A DNA stretch of 64,000 nt from Coptis chinensis (Eukaryota; Streptophyta; Magnoliopsida; Ranunculales; Ranunculaceae): positions 102,351,001 through 102,415,000 of the forward strand of contig CM027379.1 in NCBI GenBank assembly GCA_015680905.1, given 5' to 3'. The position numbers were made by a program, and so were the translations under genes. Below, piece after piece: positions 1 to 40,281 of the stretch (positions within the stretch are counted from its first letter, which is position 1; each line of letters opens with the position of its first letter). The notes beneath the pieces were generated by a model. It worked only from the letters and a program-made list of their open reading frames with translations. It did no database searches and was not told the DNA's origin.

Positions 1-20
1 GGCAAGGTAAGAAGTATAAA

Positions 21-40
21 TCTCTATATAAATATTATAG
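21..40 (+). promoter_or_regulatory. TATA box upstream of the HMGR fragment; alternatively a Helitron 5' end
   Basis: The sequence TCTCTATATAAATATTATAG holds a good plant TATA box (TATATAAATA, 25-34), about 170 bases before the HMGR start codon. That distance suits the promoter and 5' leader of that gene. The same bases begin with TC preceded by A and are AT-rich, the usual look of a plant Helitron 5' end. Both readings are possible and they do not exclude each other. Confidence 0.45.
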
Positions 41-205
41 CTCTCCCCTCCTCAATTGAGAAAGCGTTACTAGAGTGTCCACGTGTCCATACTAATTACG
101 ATAAATCAGGAGAAAAAATCTGCGAAAACTAAAGAAGAGTCGCACATCGCACGAAATTAAAATGAAAACCCCAGACCCTCTTTCTTCTCCGTACGGGTTC
201 GTAGG

Positions 206-805
206 ATGAATCTCGACATTCTCACTTTCTCTGAAATCACCGCCATCCTTTCTCTCATTGCTTCCTTCATCTATCTCCTCGGCTTCTTCGGCATCAATTT
301 CGTCCAGTCCTTAATCTCTCTTCGCATATTCATCACCCGTCTTCGCCCATCGTTGATTCCTCCTCCAAAAACATTCACTCATTCATCCAAAGACGACGAC
401 GATGAGGGAATTATTGATTCAGTGGTTTCAGGCACTACCCCGTCTTACTCGCTTGAATCAAAGCTCAGGGACTGCAAGCGAGCGGCATCCATTTGCCAAG
501 AAGCTTTGCAGAGAGTGACTGGGAAATCTCTTATTGGATTGCCATTAGATGGGTTCGATTACGAATTCATTTTGGGGCAGTGCTGTGAAATGCCTGTTGG
601 TTATGTTCAAATTCCAGTAGGGATTGCTAAGCCTTTGTTGCTCGATGGAACAGAGTATTCTGTCCCAATGGCTACCACAGAAGGTTGTTTGGTGGCCAGC
701 ACTAACAGGGGTTGTAAAGCAATTCGTGTTGTTGAGAGATGCAATGACTAGAGCTCCAGTTGTTAGGTTTGGATCCGCAAAGAGAGCTGCTAACCTCAAA
801 TTGAA
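206..805 (+). pseudogene. HMGR: HMG-CoA reductase fragment (N-terminal part of exon 1), decayed
   Basis: In the family this enzyme makes mevalonate from HMG-CoA at the ER membrane. The reading frame from ATG 206 has a hydrophobic segment at residues 10-35, a basic and variable linker, then a stretch matching plant [50 protein letters not shown] and [19 protein letters not shown]. The frame breaks at about 720-730 and the match continues one frame over with [21 protein letters not shown] up to about 805. The remaining catalytic part, more than half of a normal protein of about 580 residues, is absent, and the sequence switches to an FBD-protein match. The 5' leader and TATA-like box suggest a copy taken from genomic DNA. 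The family call is secure; the locus cannot make an active reductase. Confidence 0.93.
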
Positions 806-817
806 ACCCCAGTTTGT

Positions 818-1375
818 CTGCCTACATATTCTACTTTGAAGCATCTCCACCTTCATATGCTTCCCATTGAAAACCAAGTTCAAGTTGTTATCATCTTATT
901 AAAAAGAACTCCTAATCTGCAGACTCTTGGTATCTATGTCCTGGTAATACTAGAAATCTTATAAATTTTACATATACCATTATGAGAAGAATTGCGGTTT
1001 AGCTCATTTTATTTATTTTTTTCAACTGCAGATGTGACAGATGTGAGATACAATGCAAGATACACTCATGGAAAAGGAATATTGGCAACCACGGGAGTTA
1101 TACTCTGTGCATCATTCGATCATCTTAAATTACTTAAAATCGAGTCATTTCAAGGAACAGAGAGTGAATTTAGACTTTTGAGGCATTTGTTTGAGAATGG
1201 TAACGCCATAGAGAGAATGAATATCTGTTATTTAAAAGAAATGACTGAAACCGGAAGAACTGGTTTTAGCGAGAAACTAATGAAACTAACAAGAGTTTCA
1301 ACAGAAGTAGAGATATCAGCTGGTGACGACTTATATAAGCCCCATCCCCACATTTTCAAATGGCTCACATTTTAG
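818..1375 (+). pseudogene. F-box/FBD/LRR protein fragment (C-terminal, two exons)
   Basis: The first piece (818-943) reads LPTYSTLKHLHLHMLPIENQ followed by LLKRTPNLQTLGIYVL, the LRR-to-FBD region of plant F-box/FBD/LRR proteins. It ends at a GT donor (944). After a short intron ending in ttcaactgcag (AG 1030-1031) the second piece starts at 1032 and carries the FBD core: LKLLKIESFQGTESEFRLLR, FENGNAIERMNICY, then a Lys/Thr-rich tail to a stop at 1375. In the family, the F-box recruits SCF ubiquitin ligase and LRR/FBD is thought to bind substrate. The F-box and most LRRs are missing. The match starts within about 15 bases of the end of the HMGR match, so the two fragments are fused end to end. 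The family call is strong from the FBD pattern; which member is unknown. Confidence 0.75.
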
Positions 1376-2467
1376 CATGGATTGTAACCCAAAAAAATTA
1401 CATTCATGTCTGTACCAAATAGTGTTATACTGCTGCAATTTATTTTTCCTTTTTCCTGGTAAACTGGTTCATCATCTGTTGCTCTAAGAACATGCAGTTT
1501 CGAGGATTGCTTACTTTTTTAGTTTGGCTAGGTATGTTTAACAATGATGCAACAACCAATAACATTTTGTCATTCGTTTCACCTCTATCCGAATTGCTTT
1601 TATAGGGTCAAATTGGTTATCTTCATACTAAAAAGTTATCTGTCATGGTTAATTAGTCCTTCACATATGTTGTTAGTACCTATGCCCTTCCATTAAGTTT
1701 TACATTCATCAGAGAAATATTACTGTGCAAAATATTTCTACATAAGCTACTATCTATATGTTGTAAAGCAAGTTGCTTGAAAAGTTTTCTTTGTTGACAG
1801 AAAACAGTTTATATGGGATTCTGGGGATGCAACTCAGGTTAGCTGGAAAAGTTAGGTGCTTTCTGAAGTTTCTTCTAACTTTCAGAGCTTTAACTTGGAG
1901 AATGGCAAGTTTTTTTTTTTTAGATGAGAATGGTAAGTTACACCTGGAATCAAATTCTTAAAGCCAATCCAGTTCATATTAGACAGTAGTGCAAATGTGC
2001 AATAAGCAATTCTTCTACGCATATGATCTGCTTCCAGCTAAAAAATGGACATTGAAGGTTGTGCAATTGTGCTTGGGTTTGCCTGTGCAAAATTCCCTAT
2101 GTAAGCTTGATCTAAAATATACTAGCTTTGAATTAAAACTATGTCGTGCTCTTGGTAAAATAGGATATTTGGACGAATCAATTGAGCTTGAAGAGTTTTT
2201 GCATGGTTGTTTGTTAGTGGATCAGGGTTCCAAGTTAGTCCAGCATAAAAAGGCCCAACATGGCATAGTTGGCCCATGAAAGTTTGTGCGGGCAATACAT
2301 TCAAGTCCTTGAGAGAATTCATTCATACCAGAAATTTCTGACGTTGGTTTTGGTGATTACGTCAAATATTGGTTACCTGATCAAAGTTACAAATCTAAAT
2401 AGGCGTAAACCAATTACCAAGTTTCTAAAGTTTTGCTGCTACTGTGTATAGCTACTCCACACCTGTA
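1376..2467. other. No assignable gene; one unrecognised open stretch
   Basis: AT-rich sequence. An open frame at 1989-2279 (+, 96 codons) and a short splice-flanked segment near 1800-1845 (after ttgttgacag) look somewhat protein-like, but I recognise no family in either. They may be further pieces of captured or decayed genes. Confidence 0.4.
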
Positions 2468-2651
2468 GGCTATTCCTGCAAGGCTGTTCATCCTATTGCA
2501 CTTGCAAAAGTGATGAACATTGCACAAATGATGAAATCTAAATTTGACGACAAGCATTATTATCTTTCTGGTATTGGTGGAGTGGAGTGGAGACTGGTAG
2601 CGACGTAGCTAAATTTATTCTTCTTGGAGCAAATACTGTTCAGGTTCATTG
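2468..2651 (+). pseudogene. PYD1: Dihydropyrimidine dehydrogenase (PYD1-type) exon fragment
   Basis: The first frame reads GYSCKAVHPIALAKVMNIAQ, MMKSKFDDKHYYLSGIGGVE; after a small tandem duplication of gtgga near 2580-2590 the match goes on in another frame as VETGSDVAKFILLGANTVQV. This is the C-terminal FMN/TIM-barrel part of plant dihydropyrimidine dehydrogenase, the first step of uracil and thymine breakdown in plastids. A plausible splice acceptor (cacctgtag) lies just before 2468. Only about 60 residues of a protein of more than 400 are seen and the reading frame is broken, so it is a gene fragment. It is on the same strand as its fragment neighbours. Confidence 0.85.
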
Positions 2652-3135
2652 ATATCTGTGATGCCTATTCTTTCTTAATCTTTGAATGTCTACGAAGAGT
2701 TTGGAATTGTGAAAGCTACGATTTAGCTCCGATAATTAGAGAATTTTATTTTAGATTGATAGGTGATGTCTTTAGTTCCATTTGTTATGTTTTCTTAATT
2801 GGTAATGTGTGCCTTATTTATGGTCATTACTTATTGTGTGTATGTCGTTGCTAACTTAAAGATTAAGTAATGGTTTGGGGGACATGGTTTATTATTCTTT
2901 TTCTAAATGGTGCTATGTTTGCAATATTATGAATTATTTACATGTGCCTGAATCAATTACTGTGTTTGTATCAGTAAGTGGAGGTTGTATTAGTTAGACT
3001 ACCGTCTTATTGTGTACTGTCTTAACTATGTATGGGGGTTGTAACAGAATGGGACAAGTGCATAGAGCATATTTGCACACATAAAGTGCAAATTGTATGT
3101 AACGCAAAGTGAGGGTTCATACAGTTTAGGGCTTA

Positions 3136-3344
3136 AACTTGATGAGTTCTTCCTTGCTTTTTCAATATTTTTTTTTCTTTGCTCATTAGTTTTGGGATCT
3201 CTGTTCTCAGCAGATAACGTGGTGGATATTTCAAAGCTAACACCAACATATATACGGATTCCTTATTGTAAGTTCTTGCATCCTCTTACAAACTTGATGA
3301 GTTCTTCCTTGCTTTTACAATTTTTTTTTTCTTTGCTCATTAGT
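3136..3344 (+). repeat. Direct repeat of about 55 bp, two copies
   Basis: Copies at 3136-3190 and 3290-3344 share aaacttgatgagttcttcc, a T-rich run and ctttgctcattagt with very few differences. The 99 bases between them include a short open stretch I cannot assign. The surrounding sequence 2652-3713 shows no other recognisable feature. Confidence 0.8.
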
Positions 3345-3713
3345 ATAAATAATTCCGGTTTATCCCATCCAGTGGATGGTTGATTTCTATAATTAGTGGA
3401 TACGGTTAGATGATGGTTAAGAATTATGATGATGGCAATTAGGTTACATTATGTTCAACAAGATTATTGAATAACAACATGTTAGCAAGCTGTTACAATG
3501 TCCGATTTTATTTTTTCCCAAACTCATTAAGTTATTTTCTGCTCATTCAATTACAGTAAATTGGTTGAGTAGTTCATATTTGTTTTTATTAATTAGAGAA
3601 TTCTCAACACATTACCAGGCGTGTTCTTTGTGCAGACTATTCCACATGCATGTTATTACCGTCTCAATTGGGGATGGCACCCAAGTACAATACTAAAGTA
3701 TACTATAGACAGA

Positions 3714-3959
3714 CATGGTCTCCTCAACATGACAACGTTTGTTCCCAATCCTGATTATTACAGGCAAGAAAATTTTCATTGAGATTGAAACAACATTTAT
3801 ACTTGAGTGAGACTCTAATTCTAATGTCCTTCTTCTGTTGATGGATTTATTATGTTCAGTGCACTGATGTGGCATCGGCTTATGGGCAAAGGAGTCCTTG
3901 CTGCTGATAGCAATTCATCGCCATTTTTACGCATTTATGCCCATTGTTCCAAAGGAAGA
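3714..3959 (+). pseudogene. GH79 heparanase-like protein fragment (two exons)
   Basis: Exon piece 3714-3763 reads HGLLNMTTFVPNPDYY and exon 3860-3959 reads ALMWHRLMGKGVLAADSNSS, PFLRIYAHCSKGR. Plant heparanase-like GH79 proteins (the AtGUS and baicalin beta-glucuronidase type) have a near-identical GLLN..F.PNPDYYSALLWHRLMG stretch in the C-terminal half. The serine codon between the exons is split, as expected from a retained intron. The first intron donor appears to be GC (AG|GCAAGA) and the acceptor is tatgttcag; the second exon ends at a strong donor, GTGAGT. In the family the enzyme releases glucuronic acid in the cell wall or apoplast. Catalytic glutamates, signal peptide and most of the protein are absent, so this is a fragment. 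Confidence 0.82.
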
Positions 3960-4305
3960 GTGAGTTCCATATTATTATTTTAAATTGCCCCAAAAAAGGA
4001 CTGCATAATCATAAAACTATTGGCTCACAAATGAACTTCAAACACCACATAGGTGTGGTGTGAATGCATGGACGAGCTGATTTTGTAAAAGTATTAGAAT
4101 ATCCAGGGTTTAGTGAATTTTTCTTTGTTTTGGTAGACAGCGTTGTTACACCCTAAATTTATCGTAAAACCCACAACCCATCTCACCAAAACACACATCT
4201 TACTTATTAAATCTCAACTTGAAAGAGGAGAGAAAAACTGCGATACATGTCTTCAACATAGACTGGAAAGCCCTAAACCTGCACAAAACCCACGACCCAT
4301 TCACC

Positions 4306-4308
<3 letters not shown>
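3960..4308. other. No gene seen; short imperfect direct repeat
   Basis: AT-rich sequence. About 40 bases around 4146-4195 recur imperfectly at 4270-4310 (cctaaa, aaaacccac.acccat, caccaaaacacac), leading into the AC microsatellite. Confidence 0.5.

Positions 4309-4370
<62 letters not shown>
4309..4370. repeat. (AC)n dinucleotide microsatellite
   Basis: An uninterrupted AC/GT run of about 31 units. Open frames across it on both strands are products of the repeat and are not genes. Confidence 0.98.
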
Positions 4371-4372
<2 letters not shown>

Positions 4373-6658
4373 CGACTAAAATTAAAAACAACCCTAGAGA
4401 TTCTCTCGCTTTAATTTCTTTTTCATATCATTTCCATACTGTTATCATTGTCTTTATTTTTTTAGTTAATTTTTTGTTGTAATAGTACTTCTTATTCCCA
4501 AAGTTTAATTTTCCAAAACCCTCGAATTCATATTTTAATTGTTAGTTGTAAGAGATGAATTTCCCAAAACCAATTAATTGTTGATCGAGAAATCAAAGTA
4601 AAGAAGACTTGATACTCAAACCATTATAAAGTTAGTAGAATTGATAAGCATATAAATTAAGTCTTCCCAATACTCAACCTATAGACATGCCCCTTAGGCT
4701 TTACATATGCTTTGTCTTTCACATCTGTTTTGGATTGATATTGGACTCTCCTCACCTGTAAAAGGACCAAAATATTTAATATGTAGAAATGATAGAATAT
4801 CGAGGAAAAAAGATTTGCTTGGATAAAAAATTGTCATAATTAATGGAAACCACAAATTTTAGCTGTAGAAAAGCATAATCCTAAGCACATCACTATTAGC
4901 TCACACTTGATGTAAATTTCACAATTATAGTTGGAAACATAAGAAACAAAAGATTAATAGTTCATGCGAAGGATTTGCACAAACCAACACACAAACTTTA
5001 CCATTACAATTTTTCCCACACTCAAACATCATAATTTATAGATACTCCCAATTGCAAATCATTCAATACCCACAAATTGTCCTTGAAAATGTATTTAAAG
5101 AATCAACACTTGAAGTTAAATTCATGATTAACTAAACCTTTCTTCAAAAAACCTTTGGGGCGACCATGTCGAGGTGCATGCAAGCTTACCTAATACATTA
5201 GAGCATTCATTTTTTGTTTGGTAAGTCATAAGAGCAATCAACAACCTAGGCATTGGAATCTCATGTTATTTAGGACATTTCAATGTCTGATAGAATATCT
5301 TAAATTAGAAACCTTTGTATCTAATCCCTATATGATCATAGGAATTGTTGGGATTCTGTTATAACTAGGGTCAATGTTGCAGAGTTCCTATGAGTACGAG
5401 AATGTCATAATGAAGATGATATTAAGCTATAGGTTACTCAAGTTGTTCCTCCATTGCAGATACTTGCTTCAGTCAAACGTCAAAGAGATCACTCAATGTC
5501 TACGTAAACTGTTGGGTTGTAAAGGGGTGACCGGATGAGAAAGGAGTTAAATTTGATGCTTGCTAGAGAATTAGAATCATTTGATCACTATAAGGCAAAA
5601 CATGAATCCAATGTCTGATCATGGAGATCCTTAATGGCATGTTAAAGTAAAGTGTGGCAGAAAAAGAGATCACCTATCATTTTGAATGTAGAAAATTAAT
5701 ATCTCAAATTAATATGAATAGTGCATGGGAACGAAGAGAACTGTATCTATACAGATGTTATGGCGATCAAATGACCACATAAATTACAAACTTGGGGAGA
5801 TCAGTTGTGATTGCGGACATGAAGTTTACTTAGTTGTTTGTTCTCTGTACTCACGGACTCTCATTATTAGTATTACCTGAATTTTAAAGTTTGTTTTTGG
5901 TAAATTCTGATATACAAAGATCAAGAAACCTTTGGGTGTATATATATATATTATTTACAGCCCAACTACTCACATTTGAACATTAGTGCATACATTCCTT
6001 GCCTTTCTTATACTAAGGAATCCAGTTTTAACTATAGAATGATAGTAGACTTTTTGTTATTATTTATTAATTTTTCTAAAATGTTTTGATTGGTTTTTAT
6101 TAGTGATGTTGTATTTGATCAAGTGCTATTAACTAATGGGTTTATTCTCTATTTTTTAGTTTGAATCATCAGTATGAGTCGGACTCTACTAATGAATGTC
6201 TTCAACCAATAATTCATTTATTCTTCTAACGATCCATTGGAATGGGAAAGAACGAGGATGATCGAGGTACTATGTTTTTTCTTTGGGTTTGGGGATTTGA
6301 CCCTTCATTCTTTTAAACAAGAAATCCCTTAATATATAGATATTAGTCCTTATTATTCTTTGGGTTTGGGGAATATACATATAAATGGTGGTGTTCTCTT
6401 TACTGTACAATGGAAAAAACTTTTTCACTTCCAATCTTCATCATAAAAATCTTAGCTGGATATACTTTTTTTCGAACAAAAGGTACCACCCCTTTAACCC
6501 AATGTTTTGCAAGTGATAGTTGAACTTGAAAAAGGAAAGCTAAACCCATGACTAAAAACCAAAAAATAAGTTGATTCTGCATTCTATATTCCTCTTTAGC
6601 TTGGACTATTTGAATAACAAGGTGTTTTCTCAAGTTCTCACTTTGGAAAAGCATTAGT
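4371..6658. other. Long AT-rich stretch without a recognisable gene
   Basis: No domain, RNA gene or bounded repeat was recognised on either strand. A minus-strand open frame at 6400-6654 has one hydrophobic segment, but it matches no family I can name. Confidence 0.5.
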
Positions 6659-7001
6659 CTTAGATCGAACTATAGAGCTAAATGTCTTGCAGTTCTTGAA
6701 GGAGTGGAATGTGCCTTGACTAAGGGTTGGCGGCATATTTGGGTAGAAACTGATCGATTCAGAAGCAACTGCTTTAGCCTTTAATATGGATAAACTACCA
6801 TGGATGTTGCTACCTAGGTGGATGAATTGCAAAGGTCAATTGGTAAAGTTCAAGATCTCTTCCATTTGGAGAGAAGTTAACTTTACAGCGGACACGCTAG
6901 CAAAAGCAAGAGCATTACTTCAGGACAATGGAACCAATTTGGTAGATGGCAAACCCGACTGGATTCAAAAATGCAAAAGAGCTTATGCCTTTACTGTATA
7001 A
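6659..7001 (+). pseudogene. RNase H-like domain fragment of LINE/RVT_3 type
   Basis: The first frame gives RAKCLAVLEGVECALTKGWR and HIWVETD; after one shift near 6755 the second gives MDKLPWMLLPRWMN, KISSIWREVNFTADTLAKAR, then a tail to a stop at 6999-7001. The order E-G-(A)-x7-W-E-(T)-D, then I..+R+.N..AD.LAK, is that of the plant RNase H-like domain found at the end of non-LTR retrotransposon polyproteins and as stand-alone copies. The first catalytic part (DGS motif) is missing upstream. No reverse transcriptase is seen next to it. It is a LINE tail or an isolated RNase H-like gene relic. Confidence 0.72.
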
Positions 7002-8135
7002 AGAAGCAGGATGTTGTCAGTTTAATGCTAATTTGATCTAAAGGGCCTCTTTAAGGGCAAAGCAATTAAATTCTTCAATGGCCAGACTTATAATTCCATT
7101 CACACACTCTGTTTAGTTTACACTATTTTGCTTTAATTTTGCCTTGCATCACTATATAAGCTGACATACTTCGCCATTGCAAGATATTTGGCCATTGAAC
7201 TACTTATGAGCTTTTCCATGACCGAGTTGGTTAACTGCTCTTGAATTTATGAAATTATTTAGTCCGTTATGCCCTTTCCATATGCAAATATGGTGCATGA
7301 CTTGCTTTTTAAGAATTTTGTTTATCATTGTATTTTTTGTTTGTTTTGGTAAAAAATAATTTTACGCGTTTTGATGCTAGCAATTTTTTTTTCCCTATTG
7401 AAACAACAATATAAAGTTAGTTCATGGGCAAGGTTGTAGGATCAAATTCACGACTGCAAGGATCCTTTTATTTGTTTATTTTGTTCAGTACCATCTATCT
7501 GCAATCTCTTTTTTCTTGCTTTAGGGTCTAAAGTCGATTGGTTTGATTTGTTGTTAGTGATTGCTTTTACAATGGTCCATGTTTGGTGTATGATAGGAAG
7601 ATAGTTATATGATAGCCAAGATATAGTATTTTGTATTCCATTATTTGTAGCACATTAGGTTGTGTGACTCACCTAATTCCAGTCCACGTTTGGTATAACT
7701 TAAATTATTACTTCATTTTGTTTCAATTATGTAGCCTTAGCAGCATGTTAGCCTTTTATTTGTGGAGAACCCATCGTTTTATATGTGGAGAATACACCCC
7801 GTGTACTCAATTGGTGTCATTGACAATGAGATAGACTGATTGATGAATCCAATTATATATACTGTGAAGTTGTGATTAATATGAAATAGAAGTCATGTAC
7901 CCCTATTAGTTTTTAAACATTATGAGTCTCCCTTATATAATTTATCAAAGGGCTAGATTGTTAGGCCATGTCAAAGTTTCCAGTTGTTATGCTGCTCAAT
8001 GATTTCAAAAGTATTTCTTATAGATAGAACTACGTGAACCATAGAAGGGGTGATGGGGATTTGTCTTAGCAAGTAGCAGTCCCCTTTCGAGCTCTCTCAG
8101 GGTGTCCACACCAGTTTTTTACTCACGACAATTTA

Positions 8136-8137
<2 letters not shown>
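7002..8137. other. No gene recognised
   Basis: AT-rich intergenic-type sequence. Short open frames (for example 7631-7834) lack any recognised motif. Confidence 0.5.

Positions 8138-8201
<64 letters not shown>
8138..8201. repeat. (AT)n dinucleotide microsatellite
   Basis: An uninterrupted AT run of about 32 units. Confidence 0.98.
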
Positions 8202-8203
<2 letters not shown>

Positions 8204-9245
8204 TAAACCCCAAGTCCCAATAAAAACCCACGGTTAAAAAAAGATGTTCCTTCTGCTTTCTCTAAACCCCCAACAAAAAAACCAAGGATGAAAAACTGAA
8301 TAATTGATTTCTATTTCTCGCTAACACTATGCATAGCTAGCACATCTTCTGCTATCTTCTTCCTCGATCTCCAACGTGAGTTTGGCAATCAAAATTGGTT
8401 TTTCTCTCATCGTCAATCTTTTTAAAGATTTTTTGGCTAAATCATATTTCAATATTAAATTGCTAGGTTTTGTTGCGATAAACTTGAGACATATCATACC
8501 AGTTTGATTAATCTCCATATATTCTTTGCTTTGATTTTTTTTGCGCATCTAGGTGAGTTGCCACCACTCTTTAGTGCTTAAAACTTTATGAGTTAAGACT
8601 ACTTTGAAGAAGAAGAACAGGTTTGTTGTTTTTTGAGTTTTGTAAGTGTTGCATTTGCAAGGCATGCTATATTTTCTCATATAGTTAGTAGTATTTCTCC
8701 TGCTAACTTCAATAATTCGCCTCTATTATTCTCATGATTTATACTTCCGTATTTAGGTGAACCGTGAACCCCGCCAACTTCCACCACAATTACTCTATGG
8801 AATAAGAATTTACTCTCTTGAGCTATCTCATGAATCTTATGTTTATTGTTCTGATTAATTCCTTACTGCTTTGATTTTTGTTCTTTCTCATTTTTTTGGT
8901 TTTTCAGCTAGATTGCAAGTTCATAAACCATTTGTGGATTTGGAGGAGAGTGTAGCGACTAGCGACTGATGCAATAGAAAAACTATGGAGTGGTTAGATA
9001 TAAATTATTTACATATTTCAGATTTGTTTAATCAAGCACAAAATTAATTTTCTTAGTTTTTGTTGGGGAGACAAGGAATGAAATCTCTGATTGTTTTTTC
9101 TTATAATGATATTGTGGTTTTAGTATTGGTTTGCTTGGTTTCTTTTTTTGTACTGCCCCCACCAAACTCAAGTTGCCCAGGGAAGACCCATCAGTGTTAA
9201 GTTTCACATTCCTGACGTGACAACTATAAAACATGATGGCCTTCA
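8202..9245. other. No gene recognised
   Basis: AT-rich. It holds several leader-like runs (ctctaaacccccaac, cttcttcctcgatctcc) but no coding match on either strand. Confidence 0.45.
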
Positions 9246-9447
9246 ACGGGAAATTAGAAGCTTGATGTTAAAGAATTGAATCAATTTCAAAACACCCACA
9301 AGACGGGAAATCAAAAGTTTGATGAAAAAGAATTGGATCAATTTCAAATAACCACGAGACAGGAAATCAGAAGCTTGATGGAAAACACTCACGAGATGGA
9401 AAAATTGGATCAATCCCAAAGCACCAACAAAATCAGAAGCTTGAATA
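9246..9447 (+). repeat. Degenerate tandem repeat, units of 57-72 bp
   Basis: A unit of the type aattggatcaatttcaaa, cacccacaagacgggaaatc, agaagcttgatggaaaa begins at 9274, 9331 and 9403, with a partial copy before the first. It stays open as 62 codons (9276-9464) rich in Gln, Glu, Asn and Lys, so it may be a piece of a repetitive coding region, but no family is recognised. Confidence 0.7.
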
Positions 9448-10250
9448 GTACTGATAATGTCTAAGGTTTGAGCTTATTCTATCCAACCAACCAAGAAGGC
9501 CCAATGCAAAAAAATATCAAGTCTTTTTCATACACATTGTTCATTTGTAATTTTGGAACAAACCAAACCACTAATGCATTTGTTTTCTCATGATTTTACC
9601 ATGTTTCTTGAAGAACATTATTGTTTGAATTGTACACCTATGAGGTGTTAATTATAGCTAGCACAAATTCCAATTGTATTATGACTTTCTTCTAATGGCA
9701 TATGTCTCTAAAAAAATATAAAGATGGAATTTCAAACGGGATTCATTACCAAAAGTCCAACATAAATAGTCTTACTTACTCAAGAGAACAAATAATCCAA
9801 ACTCACTCTCTCTCTCTTTAAAAAGTCCGAAAGTACTAATAGAAAGACGATTATGACAATAAGCAGGATTAATCATGTAGCAGTTCAACTTAATCTTTAA
9901 GGATGAAAGACTTCTAATTTATATTTTAAAATAATATTATTAAATGGTAACCATTCGTAGGACGGATTCGAAAACTAGTAAAAGACTGATATCTCCTATG
10001 AAATGTAAGCATATAGTAAATATCCTGTTTCATAGGATATATTAAAACTTTGAGATATCATCACTCTTGATCTGCTGACTGTGGCAGATACCGTATGAAG
10101 ATCTTTTAAATAGAAATATAGTGAGAACGGTAATGATAGTACTAGGATGCTAGGCTCAACTAGTATTTCCTAATTTAGGAATCGGTACATTTGAGAAATT
10201 TGACCAAATCTCAAGATATGTTCCTGATACCAGTTGGATCGTGTGTTCTT
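9448..10250. other. No gene recognised
   Basis: AT-rich, without an assignable feature. Confidence 0.45.
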
Positions 10251-10580
10251 TATAACCCCACATTGGGAATTTAGAGCCTTGCACAACAACATATTAGTTC
10301 CTGGGCTGCTCTACTCAGCTCCAATTGGTTTTGAGTTGGATGCTCTGAAATTTAAGATGGTATTCGAGCAGTCTATTGTGTCTGGCTCAGAAGCCCAATT
10401 ACTCAGCTTGACCAAATTAAAATTAGTCCACCTGTTGTGCTTAACTCACACGACAGGTGAGGAGTTGCGTTGATATATATAATCCCACATTGGTAGTTTG
10501 AAGCCTTTGACAACAATATATAAGTTCTTGAGACCGTTCCCGACATTGCCAACTGGTTTTTAGTTTGGATGCCCCGATGT
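10251..10580 (+). mobile_element. TRIM-like LTR remnant pair
   Basis: Two related stretches of about 100 bases, at 10251-10350 and 10478-10580, share tata.cCCACATTGG, then a similar run to ttggttttgagttggatgc or its variant. The second follows a purine run (gtgaggag) that resembles a polypurine tract. This layout recalls short non-coding LTR elements of plants. It is an old, broken fossil and its ends are not clear. Confidence 0.4.
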
Positions 10581-11932
10581 TTGAGATTTTGTAGTGCTTT
10601 TTTCTTCATTAGTGGCTCCATTAAAAGAGTTTCTTTCAGCGTTGAAAAATTAAAAGTTGTTTGCCTTGGCATTGCATTTGATTATGTATCTGTTATCCTT
10701 TTCTATTTGTAACATTCAAAGATTTTATACAGTTTTTGGTTTTTCTCCAGGCTTTTAGCAGTGGTAAAACTTTATCGATTTGGAACCTTCCTGCTTCTGA
10801 GCCCGTTACGAGGGTTGTGACTTTATCCTATTCAAGACCTATTATTTGATGAGAACCAAGTAAGCTGTAGGCTCTTTTGTTATAGTTTCTTTAAATATTA
10901 TTCTTGTAACACGCTTTGAACGTGATGATAATATGCTGCTAAAGTACCTGTATCATTTTTGTAAGTTTGTTAGTTATAACTTGTAACTTATAAGTTAAAT
11001 ACTTAAATAACACACACTTCATATTCTTATAAAAATCCGTGTTGGACACACACACATACACATACATGTGGTCATGTTGGGCACACAAACGCGTTGTGCA
11101 TACAATTTCAAATTAGGGTTTCTTTTATACCTTAAACGACTAAGAAAATAATCTATTAACGTGGTTACGATTTCCATGATATGCCACTTTCATAGTTTTT
11201 TATTTGTAAAAAGGCGTTTTGTAAGGTCTTGAGCTCAAGAATTAGGTGTTAACTAAAGAAAAATAATAGTTTGCTTTTTAATTAGCTGTGTCCCTGAATC
11301 CCACTTCATATAGGTCGCCTTGCCTGACACTGACACCGACACACTTGTCCGTGTCAATGTGACTTAGCTTATAAGTTAAATAGTAGCTGCTTTTTCCTAT
11401 GCTTCCTGGTCTACTATTTGGTTATTCATATATATTATTGTTTCTCATAATAGCATCCTGGCCCTTTGTGAAATACAAACCAATTGACTGAGCTTTGTGT
11501 CGACACATTCCACTCTGCCACTGATACTGTTCCCACTTAATTGAACCACCCTCACCAGAGATGTGGGGTTGCCCATAAGCATCAGTTCTAAGAAGAGTTT
11601 TATCATAACATAGGAATCAGGTCCCGGACGTAACCTAACTGATGGGTGAGTGCATGACTAGTGACTTCGTTTTTTAGGCAACCTTCACTGCTTTGAGCTA
11701 GGACTCTTTCTCATATCCTTGAGGTATCACAGTTCCTCCACCTTTAGGATGTTAGCCTCAGCTTAAATACTACTCTACTCTATGAAGAGTTTTGAATACA
11801 CATCCCAATCTACCAATGATACTGCCTTAAAAACCTGTCAATAGAGGGCTGATTTTCCTCAAAAGGCCGCAGCATTGTAGTGATCAATCATCACAGAAGA
11901 AAATAAGTCCTGGACAACATAAGACAGAGGGT

Positions 11933-12004
11933 AGATATTGGTTGAAATATCAACCCATAAAATGTCGCAGATATTGGTTGAAATATCAACCCATAAAATG
12001 TCGC
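11933..12004 (+). repeat. 36-bp tandem duplication
   Basis: The 36-base unit beginning agatattggttgaaatatca occurs twice head to tail without differences, inside the long THO6-fragment intron. Confidence 0.95.
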
Positions 12005-12264
12005 CAGATATCAAAATTGGCTGATTACGATTTTTACGAAGGAAAAGGTCAAGCTGACAAAATTCGACAGGTAAAGCATTGTCGCATGATATAGGTATTC
12101 GAATTCCTGAAAAAACAACAAATGTCGTGATGGGAATTTGTACCATGCTGGATGGTACCTAAGTGAGGTGCAACTAAATTCCCAAAGATGCTCTTTCCAG
12201 CATACCATCTAGGTATCTATTTGATGTTTGGAATACAATGTATATGGAGGAATACTGGATTTGT

Positions 12265-12392
12265 GAGTTGCGTACATGCTCTGCACCAAAAGATACATCT
12301 TGTTTCAGGGTTCCAACTTCTTTGGAATTCCAATAACCATTTTTAGAATCCCAAGACAAGAAGTGCGTTAGTGCAGAGCATGTATGCAACTC
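12265..12392. repeat. Inverted repeat, 22-bp arms
   Basis: gagttgcgtacatgctctgc (12265 onward, 22 bases) is the reverse complement, with one mismatch, of 12371-12392. The spacer is 84 bases. A separate small hairpin, GTACCAT-gctgg-ATGGTAC, lies just upstream near 12140-12160 inside a wider GGGAATTT/AAATTCCC pair. Confidence 0.8.
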
Positions 12393-13163
12393 ATGAGGCG
12401 TGCCTGCTAGCATTCTTCTAACTTAGTTTTAAAGTACCTTTTGTTTCTTTGCCAATGGTGAATAATCATTTGTCCAAGTTTTACAAGTCTTTAATTCATG
12501 ATATGTAGCTTAGACTGTTATACATATCAATGCTCCATTGTCCTCCATTTTAGCAAATAATTTTCTGTTTTCCTTGTCTTTATATCGCTGTTATGTTGCA
12601 CCAGAAATCTCCTTAATTTCACAACTCTATGATGTTGATGAATGGTGATCATCTACTATACTGAGTAATGATACTCTGCAGTGAAAATGTGAAATCTTGA
12701 GTGCAATGTCTTCGTTCAGTTCATATATTAATCATCTAAGTTCTCTCATTGTATACCCATTTTTTTATATATATTTGTATTTTTTAACTTTGGTTTTCAT
12801 CTGCAATTCAGATTTTGGCAGTTGGAGCAGAGCCTGTACTCAGTCGTTTTGACATGAATGGAACAGCTCTCTCTCAGATAAATTGTGCTCCTCAGTCAGG
12901 ATTTTCTGTATCATTTCATTCTTCTGGGGTATGTACTGGTTAATCCTGTCTTCTTTGCCATATTATTATCATACTTTTGTTTGCTGCTCATATGCTATGT
13001 TTGGGAAAATTGGCTCCTTGAGCAATGATAAGTACTATCTGCACGTCCTATTGTCTTTAGCATTATAAATGTTGCTGTGAATGTTTTCGTAATGCCATTA
13101 CTTGGAAATCAGGAAATGACAATGAAATTGTGATCCTGGAAATGAGATTTAAATTGTCAATAA

Positions 13164-13658
13164 GGGCAATTCCAATGGGGAGTGTAAACCATATAGAGTG
13201 GAAATTTTACACTCCAAATATCAAAAAACTCTCTCCAATGGGAGTGCTATACCGTAGGTAATAGTGTATTAACTAGTAGAGAGGGTGGGGAATTTCCCCT
13301 CTCGCTATTAGTTAATAAAAAATCCGGGCGACACTCGAACTGACGTCTGAGTGAAATAATTTTCGGACGTCACTTGGAGTAACGTCCCTTTCTAATTCTA
13401 AAGTAATTTTTTAACTCGGACGTCACTTGGAGTGACGTCCCAGGAGTGACGTCCCAGTTTAAATTAAAGAGGGACGTCACTTGGAGTGACGTCCGAGTTT
13501 AAAATCTATTTTTTTTTTTACACTCTTCCATTAGAGAGTATAGAGTGTAGATATTTATAAACTATACAATACTATACAATTAGAGGTGTAAAATTTTAAT
13601 GACACTTACGTAGAGTTTAAGTGGAGGTGTAATTTTACACCCCTCATTAGAGATGCCA
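13164..13658. mobile_element. Tourist-like (PIF/Harbinger) MITE
   Basis: The element is about 495 bp with terminal inverted repeats: left GGGCAATTCCAATGGGGAGT, right end reverse-complementing to TGGCATCTCTAATGAGGGGT. A TAA duplication flanks it (13161-13163 and 13659-13661), the usual 3-bp target of PIF/Harbinger elements. It has no coding capacity. It lies in the intron before the last THO6-like exon and carries an internal array of palindromes. Confidence 0.8.
13365..13494. repeat. Array of palindromic ACGTCA/TGACGT units inside the MITE
   Basis: A near-perfect palindrome, GGACGTCACTT-x-AGTGACGTCC, occurs at about 13365-13387, 13418-13440 and 13472-13494, with half units at 13340-13347 and 13443-13454. 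Each unit presents two TGACGT cores, the known binding core of TGA/bZIP factors. Whether these are bound in the plant is not shown by sequence. Confidence 0.85.
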
Positions 13659-14006
13659 TAACCCCACCCTATTTGAAGTTGAACTGCGTGATTTTTTTTT
13701 AAGGAACCTGTTTGGGTGTGGGACTAGATCAAGGATGTTTGCTTGGGTTTGATCAGGGCCACAAATTAACTGCCTTTACATGTGCACAACAGTATATAAA
13801 TTCCCAACGTGAATTCAGTTGAAGTTGACATTGATGAGATTCATTGGTTTGATTGATAATGAAGTGCATTGGGAATTGTATAGTCCTTGAAGTGATTATA
13901 AAAAGTGTTGGACAAAATTATAGAATTAGTAATTGGAGCATGCATCCCATGCTTATGATAAACCTGTATTTTTGCTGCAGGTCACTGCAGTTGGAGGCTA
14001 TGGGAC

Positions 14007-14380
14007 CAATGTCCAAAATATCGCCGATATATCTAATATATCATTGATATATTTCAGTAAATTGGTACACTGATATTGATATTTTTGATATATATCCACC
14101 GAATATTGAATTCTTTTTTTTCTGATATATATCGGAATTTTCGATATGAAACTTTATATTGCCGATATAATTGATATTTCTGATATAATTGATATATATC
14201 GATTGACTTTTTGACCATTTTTAATATAAATCCGATATTTCCAATATATTTCCGATATGTTTATGATATTTCCAATATTTTAAATAGTTTGGACTGGTCA
14301 CCAAAAAAATAGATATATCCGATATATATCGGTTTTTGAATACACCGAAATATTCATCGATATCGATATTTTGGGCCTTG
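14007..14380. mobile_element. hAT-like MITE of GATATAT-rich type, copy 1
   Basis: The ends are CAATGTCCAAAATATCG and, reverse-complemented, CAAGGCCCAAAATATCG. The inside is built from (c)gatata/tatcgatat words. The flanks are TGGGAC (14001-14006) and TGGGGGAC (14381-14388), read as an 8-bp target duplication whose left copy lost two G. Joining the flanks across one copy restores the expected THO6 codons for G-Y-G-G-L-V, which supports both the ends and the gene call. No coding capacity. Confidence 0.8.
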
Positions 14381-14450
14381 TGGGGGACTAGTGGACATTA
14401 TAACTCAGTTTGGAAGCCATTTGTGCACGTTTTGTTGCCGTGGTCGTTGA

Positions 14451-15347
14451 TGTATTGCTTTGTCTGGATTTTCTAATGCTGGTAATTGCAAGATTTTCTT
14501 GTGCTAGAAAGTTGCTTGTCAGGATGGGGAGTGTTGTACAGGCTTCTGCAATCTCATGATTGAATTTTTCTCGTTTGAAGAAAGTATCAGTACGTGCATT
14601 TTGATCAGTAACAGCCTCCTTTTTTGGTCATTTGGTATATAATATTTAGTACTTACAATGTTTTTAAATGTGTATAATCTTCCACTTTTGATACTACTTT
14701 CTCTTTATTAAAATTTTCATTTGTCTCGTCCAGGTTTCCAAAGTAATGTAGTTTGCAGAGGTCTACTTTATGCATGCGTCGTATGTACATAGCATTCCAG
14801 AATTATGATGTCTTAGTAATCTCAAGGTTTGGATGCTCACATCTAAACCCAGCTAGGTTGGCACCCCCAAACCCATTTACAATGCCTTTTGTAATCTAAA
14901 TAAACTACACTGACCTTATTTGGCTACCGTTTTTTGTACTTAAAGTGCACTGTTAGTTTTGTATATTGTCGAAGATATTCGTCTTTCTCTCGAGCTGATA
15001 AAGAACCTAACCAGAGTAGACGTCAAATAGTAATTAAAAAGCGTTGCAGAACCTAATCTGTATCCTTCTGCAAAACTATAGGATACATTTCCTCATCTTT
15101 TGCTAGTTTCGTAATCGAGCCTACAGCTGGTTTTTTAATCAATTTAGCTATTTTTTATGTTTCTAGATTGGCTTGATTTTGATTAATCGAGTATAGCCCA
15201 ACATGTCAGGATGAGAAATCAAAACTCCGTTGATTTCAAGTTTTCAACCAATCTTTGTAATATAGAAAGGTTATTTCCATTAAGCAATGTAGGAACACAA
15301 CTATCTTGGAATTGTTTGAAAAGATCATCTAAGCAATGTAGGAATTG
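14451..15347. other. Former 3' flank of the THO6 fragment; no gene seen
   Basis: AT-rich sequence after the THO6 stop codon. No recognised coding or RNA feature. Confidence 0.45.
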
Positions 15348-15785
15348 TTATTTAGCTTTTGGCCCCATTTTATATATGGATATTAGTGCTTGGCTCTCTT
15401 AAGTTGGTTTATTCGTTTTCAATCCAATACAAATTTCGTTTCGATGAATTGGAATTTAATACAAAAGCATAAATTGAAATTTAGACATTCTATTTACATA
15501 TATTTTTGTTTTTGGCCCCTGTTTCAAAATCTTTACTTTATAGAAAAATGTGGGGTCGGGTAACAGTGATTTTGGTGTACGTCGTAGGGGCAAAATTGTA
15601 ATTTCACTTTTTAAAAATATTTTTTGTTTTTGGAAGGGTAAAACGGTAAATTAGTATTTTAAATTTGTTTTTAAAGTAGGTTTTCAAAACTGGTGGACAA
15701 ACAGGGCTATAATGGTAAATTTATTCTTAAATTAGTATTTTTAGTCAATTTGTAAGACCGTCCATGTTGAAAAAATACAACACAA

Positions 15786-15814
15786 CACGTGTTTTTACAC
15801 GTGCACGAGGCTAG
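15786..15814 (+). mobile_element. Helitron-like 3' terminus
   Basis: A perfect 7-bp stem with 4-base loop, CACGTGT-TTTT-ACACGTG (15786-15803), is followed after 7 bases by CTAG (15811-15814) and then T. This is the rule for Helitron 3' ends: hairpin about 10 bases before CTRR, inserted before T. The 250 bases before it have the repeated gggcaaaattgtaatttc / gggtaaaacggtaaa style common in non-autonomous plant elements. No RepHel protein is seen in the window. Confidence 0.6.
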
Positions 15815-15849
15815 TAACTTTTAAGGTTTTAGCCCTTCCTCCATTTAGA

Positions 15850-16213
15850 TCATGCAAACTCAACTTCCCATATTTCTGTGGATTGTGGTAAAGCCGACCT
15901 GCATAACAGACTCGTTGGGATGGTCATCATATAATAGAGAGTACGGTAGAAGAGGATGCACAGCAAGGAAGTCTGCTCAGAGCTTGTCCTTTAATGGCCA
16001 ATATAAAATTAGGAAAGCAGGATTGACAATTGATTGCGTAAAGAAAGCACTTGGAGCTCCTGCTTTGGTGACCAAAATCTTACTTGGGTTGGCCCTTGAC
16101 ACAAGGTAAATGGTATGGGATACAAAGTCATGTATGAGTTTCTGTACCGCGAACATGAGGGCCAGCCACTCTTTCTCAACTAGTGGATAACAGTGCTCTG
16201 CCCACACCATCAT
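15850..16213 (-). mobile_element. Ty3/gypsy RNase H relic
   Basis: The minus strand reads YPLVEKEWLALMFAVQKL and HTIYLVSRANPSKILVTKAG, the RNase H part of a Ty3/gypsy polyprotein. It is a small, broken fossil with no LTR recognised beside it. Confidence 0.75.
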
Positions 16214-16960
16214 TAGAAAGGGGTAAGGTAATAGGTGGGAATAAAATCCACCATAGTGCCAGCTAGTAGAAGTTACTGTTGCAATTGTTTGATCAGCTAT
16301 TCCTGTTGCAGTTGTTGTCTACCGATCGACTTTACATGGTATTATTCTATCTTGATGAAGCCGGCCTATTTGTTTTGAGACCCAGCTGCTTGTGCTTACC
16401 CCGATCATACCGAGATTTATTTGTTTTAACTAAAGCAAAGGAATTACCTCAACCGGGATCAAAGCCCGTTTCAAGATCGAGTATCGACATACTTCGAATG
16501 CGAGATCTTCCCGTGGGTCGTAGCCTATGAAGATCTTGAATACCTTTTTGGGTGTAACCCCATTGTTGGCATTCACAAGAACAAGTGCAGTATGATATGA
16601 GCACTATTCATAGTAATTGAATTTTAAGTTATTGTTCAAATTTATATGGATTTAGTTTTGCATCATGGAAGAAGGTAAACAGTGCTCATTTAAGAGAGCA
16701 TGAGTGGTTAAATTGGGTTACAAGGACGGTCCAGATGAGATTAAATATAGTTTTTTAGATTAAATTGTGTTCATTCGATTGTTGAGATCTGGACTGTTTT
16801 GATAAAAACATGTGTCTATTACACTTAAGTTAGTGGACCACTTTCTTAATGGTATATTGGTAAATATTGTTAAGGGGTATTTGAGCCATTACGAAAATAT
16901 GAGAACTTTATTTCACAGCCAGTACAAAATTGACCGAGTCAACTAACGGAACTGGAACTA
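16214..16960. other. No gene recognised
   Basis: Open frame 16279-16530 has no recognised motif. The rest is AT-rich intergenic-type DNA. Confidence 0.45.
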
Positions 16961-17032
16961 AAAACGAATAAACTAATTTAGGAGAGCCAAACGCTAATAT
17001 CCATATATAAAGTGGGGCCAAAAGCTAAATAA

Positions 17033-17464
17033 CCCAAAGAAAAAATAGCTGTATATCTTGAATAGCGAACATTGTTGAAGAACAAGCTGGAAAGAGAAGT
17101 TATGGTAAGAATTGTAGCCAAACAAGAGTTACGAAGTGATGGAGAAGAGTTGATGGGCTAGTTATTAAAGAAAGTTGGTTTGAACTTTGAGGAGAAGGGT
17201 GTTTGAGGTTTGGCGTTCGGGCGAGTAGTTGTTGTGATTGCTACAATGGTAAGTACGATTGAGACTGTTATCGTGTTATGTAGTATGGTGCGTGCCACTA
17301 GATGACGCCATTGTTAGATGACGCCATTGTTGTTGGTTTTTGTAAGTTGTAGGCAACTTGGCAATAGGCATTAACACGTGAGATCCGACCCAATTTGAAA
17401 AGGCTCTTAAACCAAAAAGAGGTTGACTTACTTAAACCGACCCAATTATGGAGCTAATTTAATT
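17033..17464. other. No gene recognised
   Basis: It includes a short tandem duplication, agatgacgccattgtt, near 17300-17330. Nothing else is assignable. Confidence 0.45.
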
Positions 17465-17828
17465 CGAACACCGAAAATATCGGCCGATATATCGGCAATA
17501 TATTTTGGTTTTTGGCCCCTCCAATATAGAGATCTTAAGATATTCGGATGGATATATTGATATAATTTTCAACCGATATATATCGGGGTTTTCGATATAT
17601 CGATATATATCAACTGATATATCCAATATTTGATTGATTTTTTATTATTTTTTCAAATATTTCTGATATATATTGTTATATGTTGATGATATTTTCCGAT
17701 ATATTGACACAATTTTTTTTTGACCAATCAACAAAAAGAGATATATCGTCTGATATATCGATATTTTCGATATATTTCGTTTTTTGAAAGGTCTGAAATA
17801 TCACCCGATTTTGAAATATTAGGCCTTG
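17465..17828. mobile_element. hAT-like MITE of GATATAT-rich type, copy 2
   Basis: Same family as the copy in the THO6 exon: the left end has ACACCGAAAATATCGG, the right end GAAATATTAGGCCTTG, and the inside is gatatat/cgatatatc rich. Direct repeats sharing TTTAATT flank it (8 bp, one mismatch). It sits just upstream of the chromovirus fossil. Confidence 0.7.
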
Positions 17829-17938
17829 GTTTAATTCGGTTCGAACCCGACACCGACACCGACTCGAAACCGTTAAATTAACAAGGGCAAATCCGGAAAA
17901 CAAAAGTCATCCGAACATCACATATAAATACACCCGGT

Positions 17939-18291
17939 GAGTCATGTTTGGTTGAAGTTTCAACCTGGTTCAATGTTCATTTTTTATTGTATGGGAAAAA
18001 TCTTATTGATATATATGTAGGGGAATAACAAGTTTCCTCTACAACCAAGACTGTTGCCTTCGCTTGCCACAATTGTACTGTTGATTACTCGAATGAAAAT
18101 TATTTGATGCCTTCTTATGAAGTCTTCTTACGAACTGCTTACTTACTGCTTTTGCTCACTTCGTACAATTGTGATCTAATTACTGTCTACTCAAACACCA
18201 CTAGTTCGCACTGCTCACTCGAATAACAAGCTTACTTGGGATAAGTTACACCCAAGTGCAACACGGCACGCATCCAAGCATGTCCGTGATA
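17939..18291 (+). repeat. Chromovirus 5' LTR
   Basis: Matches the 3' LTR (about 53485-53838) at roughly 90% by eye, including ccttcgcttgccacaattgt and caagcttacttgggataagt. It is shorter than the 3' copy. Confidence 0.88.
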
Positions 18292-21701: not shown

Positions 21702-24700
21702 TGTCACACCCCGAATTTCGACAGAATTCGGAAAAACATTTATTTGTTCCCGACTCTTCGATCTCCGAGGTGTGACGCACTCTCCACTCCCAAAAACCCA
21801 TAAACAGTTTAAATATGCGGATAATTTAAAAACCAATAAAAATTTCAAATTAACAAAAGTCCTCTTCATTACAAAAATTAACAAATGAAAATGCAAATAA
21901 CTTTATCTCAACTGAAAATCTATATCACCTCAAAGGAAAACAAGGCCTATCTTGAAATGCGACGCTAACGCAAACCACAAGCAGCAACCAATCTTCTTCA
22001 ACACTAAACCTGTCAAGACTTATCAACTATGTTCATTTAATGAATACACCCGATAAGCAAACATGCAAATCGGGTCAGCATTATAAAAATGCTGGTGTGA
22101 GTAGCTCTAAAATACAACATATATTTATACATATATTTACACAATCTATAAGGCAGTTAGTTCCTCCACCGAGGCGCCTTAACTCCCAACAACTAATACG
22201 ACATTCGTAACTACAATAGGTAAAGGCGGTAGTTTCTCCAATCGAGGCCTTTAACTTCCAACAACTAATACAACATACCATACGCATAATAAAAAGGCAT
22301 TTAGTTCCTCCACGAGGCGCCTTAGGTTCTAACTAAACTACTAACCAGCCAAACATATAAAATCATCTATCTAAAGATATATCATTTACCAACATATTAC
22401 CATAATTATATTAATTAAGGCTTTCTTTGTGTGTCCCTAAAATTCACGTCGTATCTATGTCTTACCTAGTTTCCCTGGCTACCACAATCGCTTCCCAACG
22501 CCGAACATGTACATCCACATGCCTCCCCTTACATAATGAAACACTTCGTGCGTAACTACCCTGAGCGGGATGCCGCACACTAGGTAACGCTCACACGGAA
22601 GCCATTATGCAAGTACTGCCACTATTCGGCATAAAATATCGCGCGTCTCGTTCTATTTTGCGAACGGAATAATCAAGCCACTATTCGGTTACGCCAGAAG
22701 GGCCATTCAGCTTAACTGAAACGCCAGAAGGGCCAATCACATTACTTACACCCGAAGGCCATTCAGATTCACTGAAACGCCAGAAGGGCCAATCAAATTG
22801 CACACGCCCACACAGGGCAAATCACATGAGTTGTGGTAGTCAGGTTCTAGGATTTTCGTTACGTAATTTATTCAGGTGTCATCCATAAATATCTCATAAT
22901 CATTTCACTATATCACGTGCATGTCAAATACATTATTGCACTAAGCCAAATATATGTAGAATTATTTCAATTATATCTCATAACCACTTTTATTCTTTCA
23001 CGTGCCAATATATTATTGCACTAAGCCACAATCCCGTGGGCAAATATTTACCAATACTATACTACCTCATAGTAGTATCTCACATATAAAATAATGGAGT
23101 GCTTATACATTTATTTCTCCAAAACTATTACATTTAATATATATATCCCAACATATTATATAATGTCACAATATCAACGACAAATCTTAATTAGATAATG
23201 ACCACCAAATTTATACAAGCTTCCCCAGCATTTTAGCATTTGATTTATCCATACAATTTACAACATAAAATGTAGCACAATTAAACAGTCCACAATCCAC
23301 AACCAAAGCCCAATATATATATGTTTTACACACTACTCACGTCAAATCTTAATTAGATAATGACAAACAACGTTATATAATGTTCGACAATATTTTATTA
23401 TTATAATAGTCCATAAAATCAAATATGTGAAAAACTGGAAAAAATCAACATTCCACAGTCAACGGTCAATGGTCAAAGTCAACACGTTATTGTCAAAGTC
23501 AAACTGTCGTTCCATGTTCAACAGGTTCAGGGTCATAGCCATGGTTCGTGGCTAAGGTCAATGTGCATGGCTCATGGGCTCATGACTAAGGTAATGGTTC
23601 GGACCCAACTGGCCAAGCCCAAACCTTAGAACCCGAAAGTCTAAAACCAACTTATTTATTCCACCTGACCCAATTGGGGACATAAGGACCAGCCCACATA
23701 AAATTATAAATCGGCCCAAAGAAAACTAATTAGTTTTGACCCAAAACCGAAATAGAACTCGGCCCACAACTAACACTAAAACTGGTCCCAAAACTTAATG
23801 AAATTGGGCCCAAACAAAACAATCTAATTGGAAAAGGCCCAACCAAACTAACCTAAACCCAAGAGAAACCGACCCAGGCCCAAGCCCAGCCGATCATCTT
23901 CTCCAACAGCCACCACCAAAACCGGCCACCACCAATTCCGATCGCCCACCCATTTCAACCCACCAATTTTGATCCCCATAACAACCCCTACAACTTTAAC
24001 AAAGCCAAAAATCTCAAATCCTTAAATCCAAGCATCACCAAAACTAGATCTGGAAATAATTTCCGCCACCATTAACGCTTGTTTCAAGCTTCCACCACCC
24101 CCATTCGAACATCAATACCCAAACCTCAACCCCTTACTACCCCAATGTTCAATCAACACCAAAAAAAAAATAATCCGCACAGGTTCACCTAACTTTTATC
24201 GGCGATTTTTTCTTATCACGCCATTAATGAGCTTCACGATACGTCCAATCACCAACAACCAACCTCCAGCACTCACTCAAACCCCACTCATCCATTCTCA
24301 CCCAACCAAGACAACTACCGATTTAAAAGTGTATTGAACCCTTCCTCCACAGCACTGCCATTAACGAACTCCACGCTCCCGCTTCGACAGCATCCAACCA
24401 ACCTCCAATAACCCACAACAACCAACGAGATTTAATAGATAAACAGTCTTCAATAATCTACAAACAGTTCCAACCCGTACACAGAGACGACTTCTCTGTC
24501 TCGCGCCGCCATTGGTGACTTATTCCGAGTTCCAGTAATTCGGACAGTTTTCAATAATAACTAAAACCATATACTAATAATTATCCAGTTTACTAAATAA
24601 TGCGACATGACGAATAATGATGAACAATGAAAATTGTTCGCAGATATGCGGTGAAGTAGAAAACTAACTACTCACCTTAGTTAGCAGCTTGACGAATCCC

Positions 24701-24958
24701 TCGTAGTCCGAATCGTCGCGCTCCACCCTCCAGCAAACGAGTTTCTAGCTCTGCCTCCATTATTATTATTTTTTTATTCTCCCAGAACCCTATTATCTAG
24801 AACAATACGAATATATACTTGGGTTTGAAACCCAAGCCCAACGCAGACTCGGGCCCAGAAACCAGGCCCGCGTATCCCAAATCCAATCCAGCCGATTTTA
24901 TATAAAATTAAATTAATTAATTAATAAATAAATATGTATTTTAAATACGGGCGTTACA
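21702..24958 (-). mobile_element. Probable solo LTR (Ty3/gypsy type), 3.26 kb
   Basis: It starts TGTCACACCCCG and ends GGGCGTTACA. It is flanked by a perfect 5-bp duplication GCACC (21697-21701 and 24959-24963). No protein coding is seen. The reverse complement starts TGTAACGCCC and ends CGGGGTGTGACA, as in many plant gypsy LTRs, so minus orientation is preferred. Inside are three degenerate units of about 71 bp (22150-22340) and a GCC/GGCC-rich short repeat block (22680-22810). It is inserted in the chromovirus integrase region, with clean ends, so it is clearly younger than its host. Confidence 0.78.
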
Positions 24959-24963
24959 GCACC

Positions 24964-25308: not shown

Positions 25309-25985
25309 TGGGAGATTTCCCATCATTGGACAGATGACACGTGTGTGGGAAATAGCCCAGGACTATGGATGTCCAGAATGGGACAATGATTATCAGATCA
25401 GTTCCGCGAAGAAGTGATCTCGTGTTTAGAATGATTGTTTAGTAAACATGTGCCAGGCACGTGACTGACCGCCTCTAAGCATAACAGTTCTCCAAGTCGT
25501 TAGGAACTGTTATGGATAGTTCCTAAACAGAAGGAAACTGAAGAGGGCGATCTTTGATGATAAGGAAGGAATTGTGATTGCATATCATTTAGAGTTACCT
25601 TTTAGATATAATCTTCCTATGTACGATGGGACATTATGATCAGCAAGGAAACCTACCTCTAGTAAGATATGGTCTAGATTCAGACTTCCATAAAGAGAGA
25701 ATTCCTAATAGGAAGGTAGAGTCCAAAGATGGAAGGGAACTCACAAGCGGTGAGGACAGCCCTAACCTAAGGACTCTCATATCCCTTCATATATAAACCA
25801 TAAGGATTCACTCTTAGGAACTACGCAAAATAGGATTAATTTGATTCTCCGCATAAACAAGGTGGTATGTAGGCAGCCGCCAGGCGGTTCAACCCTAAAC
25901 TCTAAATCATCTCATCCCTTCTCGATCAAGAAGAGAGCTCCTGAATCACAAGGCATAGAGGAGGATCAAGAAGAGAGCTCCTACA
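25309..25985 (+). repeat. Tat element 5' LTR
   Basis: Matches 50814-51475 along nearly its whole length, for example ccaggactatggatgtcca and aggcagccgccaggcggttc. Confidence 0.9.
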
Positions 25986-40280: not shown

Positions 40281-40281
40281 T

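Follow-up and report, generated by a model that had tools for sequence, protein, structure and literature searches.

A candidate large Helitron in Coptis chinensis carrying pieces of six genes on one strand, with an uncertain left limit

A 64,000-nucleotide stretch of the Coptis chinensis genome (assembly GCA_015680905.1, contig CM027379.1, positions 102,351,001 to 102,415,000 of the forward strand; hereafter the window, whose own numbering is used throughout) opens with fragments of six unrelated genes, lying one behind the other in a single orientation and followed by a Helitron-type 3′ terminus. We lean, modestly, toward reading this region as one large non-autonomous Helitron that spans all of the gene pieces, with its 3′ end at 15814 and its 5′ end either at 21 or to the left of the window. 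Gene capture by a Helitron predicts what is seen here, namely a 3′ end together with co-oriented, truncated, and intron-bearing pieces. The original prediction of one 15.8-kb capture element is supported in part: the 3′ end and the character of the pieces speak for it, whereas the 5′ motif at 21 is no better than that at several other sites. A single element running from 21 to 15814 is something that we infer.

The right end, at 15786 to 15814 on the plus strand, reads as it had been described: a perfect 7-bp hairpin with a 4-nt loop, then a 7-nt gap, and then CTAG (15811 to 15814), a CTRR end followed by T at 15815. The hairpin occupies 18 nt (15786 to 15803) and stops 11 nt before the end, in agreement with the palindrome of 16 to 20 nt, about 10 to 12 nt before the 3′ end, that serves as a Helitron criterion in the part of PMC3288121 concerned with it. 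By the medium HelitronFinder rule of PMC2267711, the window contains 22 matching sites, whereas shuffles average 15.6. The terminus at 15814 is one of the 22 and the only one with all 7 arm bases paired, and just 3 such perfect-arm matches turned up in 200 shuffled windows. In sets of 200 shuffles each, the hairpin fold of −7.3 kcal/mol was equalled once for the 46-nt stretch and three times for the 29-nt stretch. When hairpins followed by CTRRT were scanned for, 7 sites were found in the window, the mean in 60 shuffles being 2.45 and the largest count 6. Searched with a free loop, the terminus pattern had no match in the viral and prokaryote collections, which was expected and has no bearing on copy number, and a literature search for the terminus and head patterns returned no match.

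The gene piece closest to the left end (206 to 803) is, judged by its sequence, certainly HMGR. Reading frame 161 to 751 matches the full-length Arabidopsis HMGR1 chain in 7uli at E 1.7e-67, which bears out the prediction for this fragment. The match opens at chain residue 86, immediately past an ATG at 206, and has a second stretch covering residues 156 to 280; after a small internal deletion behind “GCKAI”, another frame extends it to about residue 312, ending near 800, with residues 289 to 312 recovered only through a hand-typed HMGR1 peptide. Thus Arabidopsis HMGR1 residues of about 86 to 312 are represented, and the N terminus and the remainder of the gene are absent. Less than about 20 bases behind the HMGR end, as judged by eye, begins the C-terminal part of an F-box/FBD protein (818 to 1374), which has an intron at about 944 to 1032 and a stop codon, its translation and splice borders likewise having been read by eye. 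We accept the predicted FBD identity on the Pfam FBD match at 1121 to 1225 (E 4.7e-4), although its 20.4 bits fall below the cut-off of 22.

One exon of a gene for a dihydropyrimidine dehydrogenase of the PYD1/PreA type follows at 2466 to 2645, with splice-like borders and one frameshift. With the two frames joined by hand across the frameshift as the query, bacterial preA, whose product we take to be a relative of plant PYD1, is matched at E 8e-8 (49% over 57 amino acids), and this identification too is upheld. The query matches 63 plasmid records, 61 of them over at least 80% of its length, and among the 10 matches listed 3 are annotated preA or preA-like and the others have no listed gene; a hand-typed PreA peptide likewise matches the piece. 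The RNase H-like fragment at 6644 to 6999, which carries stops and a frameshift, is confirmed as an RVT_3 domain (Pfam E 1.3e-4; the score of 22.3 bits exceeds the cut-off of 21.6, whereas that of a longer frame does not). On either side of it lie C-terminal exons of a GH79 heparanase-like gene (3660 to 3958, with a GC-AG type intron at about 3764 to 3857 and a short deletion) and of THO6 (10751 to 14440, in exons at about 10751 to 10858, 12814 to 12931, 13981 to 14017, and 14386 to 14440, with long introns and one frameshift). These two identities come from hand-typed plant reference peptides, which match at 3665 to 3953 for GH79 (best E 1e-9) and at 10763 to 10862, 12809 to 12931, and 14373 to 14432 for THO6 (best E 2e-14). 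These peptides back the pair as predicted, whereas Pfam has no relevant match to either. PDB gave nothing for one THO6 exon and nothing useful for the PYD1 or RNase H pieces. Other Pfam matches in the region were discarded: the ZIP match at about 4112 to 4440 is low complexity, overlapping a (CA)n tract read as His-Thr repeats, and weak matches to Spermine_synt_N, zf-CCHC_5, and PG_1098_Fer were taken as chance. Separately, the stretch that divides PYD1 from GH79 contains a 56-base direct repeat, 96% alike (3135 to 3190 and 3290 to 3344, 155 bases apart).

All six pieces are on the plus strand, as had been predicted, within 206 to 14440, and this is the same strand that the terminus dictates; if strands were independent, chance agreement of six would be expected 1 time in 64. 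Splice-like borders, read by eye, are present in 4 of the 6 (FBD, PYD1, GH79, and THO6), in keeping with the claim that several fragments keep their introns. Since splice borders are retained, the pieces would have been captured as DNA and not as retrocopies. Of the 15.8 kb, about 2.1 kb is recognizable as coding sequence when borders are drawn by eye, and the pieces plus introns span 5.7 kb.

At the left, the stretch from 21 to 205 on the plus strand (A|TCTCTATATAAAT...) has no similarity to HMGR, which begins only after 206, and may be either a Helitron head or a piece of promoter or 5′ untranslated region. The window holds 20 bases of flank to its left. The same sequence had also been read as an HMGR TATA box, a doubt that has weakened and not vanished. 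The first 85 HMGR residues, which contain the first membrane span, are not seen upstream of 206, and because the match opens at residue 86, the normal start of HMGR does not adjoin the TATA at 25. Going by these positions, it would be less likely than it looked that 21 marks HMGR's own TATA or promoter region, and a deleted HMGR copy that retained its promoter would be a possible source.

Several observations weigh against the reading of one large Helitron. The left limit at 21 could not be confirmed, as the A|TC there scores 14 of 19 on the high-quality 5′ pattern published for maize, and 6 of 236 A|TC sites, itself included, do as well. With the same 19-position pattern run on the whole plus strand, 41 of 1059 A|TC sites are as good, and on a 14-base consensus the score of 11 of 14 is shared by 9 of the 236 A|TC sites before 15814, again counting the site itself. 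The 5′ motif at 21 is not distinctive. At the right end, the strict grade of the hairpin and CTRRT scan (stem of at least 7, GC of at least 4) gave 4 sites against a shuffle mean of 0.23, and the three besides the terminus lie in gypsy coding sequence (one) and in copies of one long direct repeat (two), so such a pattern can be deceptive when taken by itself. A central AA, which PMC2267711 requires in its high-quality maize 3′ rule, is missing from the tail. Moreover, a 3′ hairpin stood out in only 9 of 35 maize Helitrons by the count in one part of PMC2575219, so that a hairpin by itself is weak evidence. No second copy of the terminus was found in the window with up to 3 mismatches, and a length of about 15.8 kb exceeds that of most maize Helitrons as sized in the relevant portion of PMC3288121. 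A 73-bp inverted repeat, 92% alike, straddles the terminus, with one arm inside the candidate (15347 to 15419) and the other outside it (16961 to 17033), and no target duplication is visible at the arms. Should the pair delimit a single element, that element would contain the Helitron end; should the arms instead stem from separate insertions of the same repeat, no contradiction arises. The negative scans, too, lend little to the argument from strand. On the minus strand of 1 to 15842, covered by 18 frame chunks, Pfam had no match at E 0.3 or lower, which is weak evidence because Pfam misses 3 of the 6 plus-strand pieces, all of them first found by reading. The long-frame Pfam scans also found nothing, and they are insensitive, since the gypsy RNase H remnant found later lay inside the long minus-strand frames that were scanned.

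The terminus could alternatively close a short non-autonomous Helitron of less than about 1.4 kb, with a start anywhere from the THO6 stop (14440) to about 15500, in which case the gene pieces would be the product of other rearrangements. Mothra subtypes of 1252 to 2741 bp, as given in the part of PMC4683698 that describes them, show that non-autonomous Helitrons can be short, and a candidate start at 14895 ties with site 21 at 11 of 14 on the 14-base consensus. However, on the published maize pattern 14895 falls short of site 21, such an element would be flanked by the 3′ part of THO6 on one side and by gypsy on the other, two sequences that are not necessarily former neighbours, and the co-oriented, truncated, intron-bearing pieces would be left unexplained. 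We judge this account unlikely and still give it appreciable weight. Rather improbable, in our view, is that no Helitron is involved and that the region is an accumulation of decayed gene fragments and transposons, brought together by break repair and segmental copying, in which a hairpin and CTAG coincide by chance. The terminus grammar has its chance matches, nested long terminal repeat (LTR) elements are dense to the right, and the inverted repeat across the terminus is without explanation; yet matches to the rule with perfect arms are as rare as the shuffled windows indicate, and agreement of six pieces in strand would be unlikely by chance.

A Pack-MULE, or another element with terminal inverted repeats that picked up gene pieces, could be bounded by the inverted repeat at 15347 and 16961, and this we regard as very improbable. 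The repeat is there, but all six gene pieces lie outside the interval between its arms, beside which no convincing target duplication is seen; for lack of such a duplication, an element at 15347 to 17033 was dropped altogether. Among the longest 25 of 50 inverted repeats in 1 to 17900, none bounds 21 to 15814. Pack-MULEs are defined by terminal inverted repeats and a 9-bp target duplication, and, unlike in these elements, neither feature was found around the Coptis gene pieces within the window. Pack-MULEs and Pack-TYPE elements likewise carry pieces of coding DNA, as the corresponding part of PMC8903248 states.

Returning to the large Helitron, rolling-circle replication would probably have moved it, powered by a RepHel enzyme encoded elsewhere. 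Pfam has no Rep/helicase match on either strand of 1 to 15842, and a non-autonomous element does not require one. Over successive transpositions, pieces of at least five host genes may have been acquired as DNA, and this mode of capture would have left introns and truncated ends in place and all pieces in one direction; stepwise capture of this kind is the model proposed for maize in the pages of PMC3288121 that address it. Afterwards, the pieces would have decayed and small transposons inserted. For these later insertions, the earlier figure of two miniature inverted-repeat transposable elements (MITEs) is too low. With limits set by eye, a THO6 intron harbours a MITE-like element bearing inverted repeats (about 13166 to 13660), and a dispersed AT-rich repeat splits the last THO6 exon (about 14018 to 14385), in addition to a palindromic stretch at 12264 to 12393. 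The THO6 reading picks up again past the AT-rich repeat, a 62% relative of which lies outside the candidate element at 17487 to 17828.

Beyond the terminus, to its right, is what remains of a Ty3/Gypsy RNase H (15975 to 16204, minus strand) in the orientation opposite to the gene pieces, which counts in favour of the large-Helitron reading. Pfam RT_RNaseH matches at about 16064 to 16204 with E 0.0026, below the cut-off, and tblastn with the window's own pol matches at 16100 to 16201 with E 0.004; translation by eye and a KGQAL match at 15975 to 15992, not significant alone, carry the remnant nearer to the terminus. Left of 15814, a continuation of it on the minus strand was sought and only chance-level matches were found. 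Farther right, nested LTR retrotransposons fill 17939 to 53836, with gypsy gag-pol remnants between enclosing direct repeats at 17939 to 18287 and 53478 to 53836 (88%), 25311 to 25970 and 50820 to 51475 (91%), and 29195 to 33053 and 40281 to 44173 (95%, 3.9 kb). Within the innermost nested element lies a match to Rfam snoR71, a plant C/D-box snoRNA, at 39146 to 39249 (score 40.6 against a cut-off of 40). The segment from 21702 to 24959, which opens with TGTCACACCCCG and closes with GGGCGTTACAG, seems by eye to break gypsy pol and may be a solo LTR or a small retroelement. Past the LTR elements, a 389-amino-acid open frame at 55017 to 56186 encodes about ten PPR repeats, and an upstream frame at 54650 to 54916 resembles part of it (32% over 77 amino acids).

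Among known systems, the maize HelA/HelB elements, with TC...CTAG ends and an A/T insertion context, have in common with the Coptis stretch the CTAG end followed by T, a 3′ hairpin that stops some 11 nt short of it, and several gene pieces; the A|TC start at 21 would be the counterpart of their head. Maize helAs carry 0 to 12 gene pieces each, and about 80% are sized between 100 bp and 10 kb, according to the survey portion of PMC3288121; in contrast, the candidate Coptis element is larger than that class, with a putative head at 14 of 19 on the maize 5′ pattern and a tail without the central AA. PMC2575219 reports Helitrons that reach 15 kb or more, so the kind is already known and an element of about 15.8 kb, if real, would be a large member of it. 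By the comparison in that source, Helitrons commonly capture genes in maize but rarely do so in Arabidopsis or rice. It is conceivable, and on balance doubtful, that a Helitron of near 16 kb, all six of whose pieces follow its own direction and whose head has a TATA-like promoter upstream of captured HMGR and FBD exons, could yield chimeric transcripts. A well-dated example of multiple capture in which every piece has the same orientation could serve to test the mechanism of capture, stepwise copying versus read-through; as it stands, the locus is mainly a warning to annotators that the exons here are not genes.

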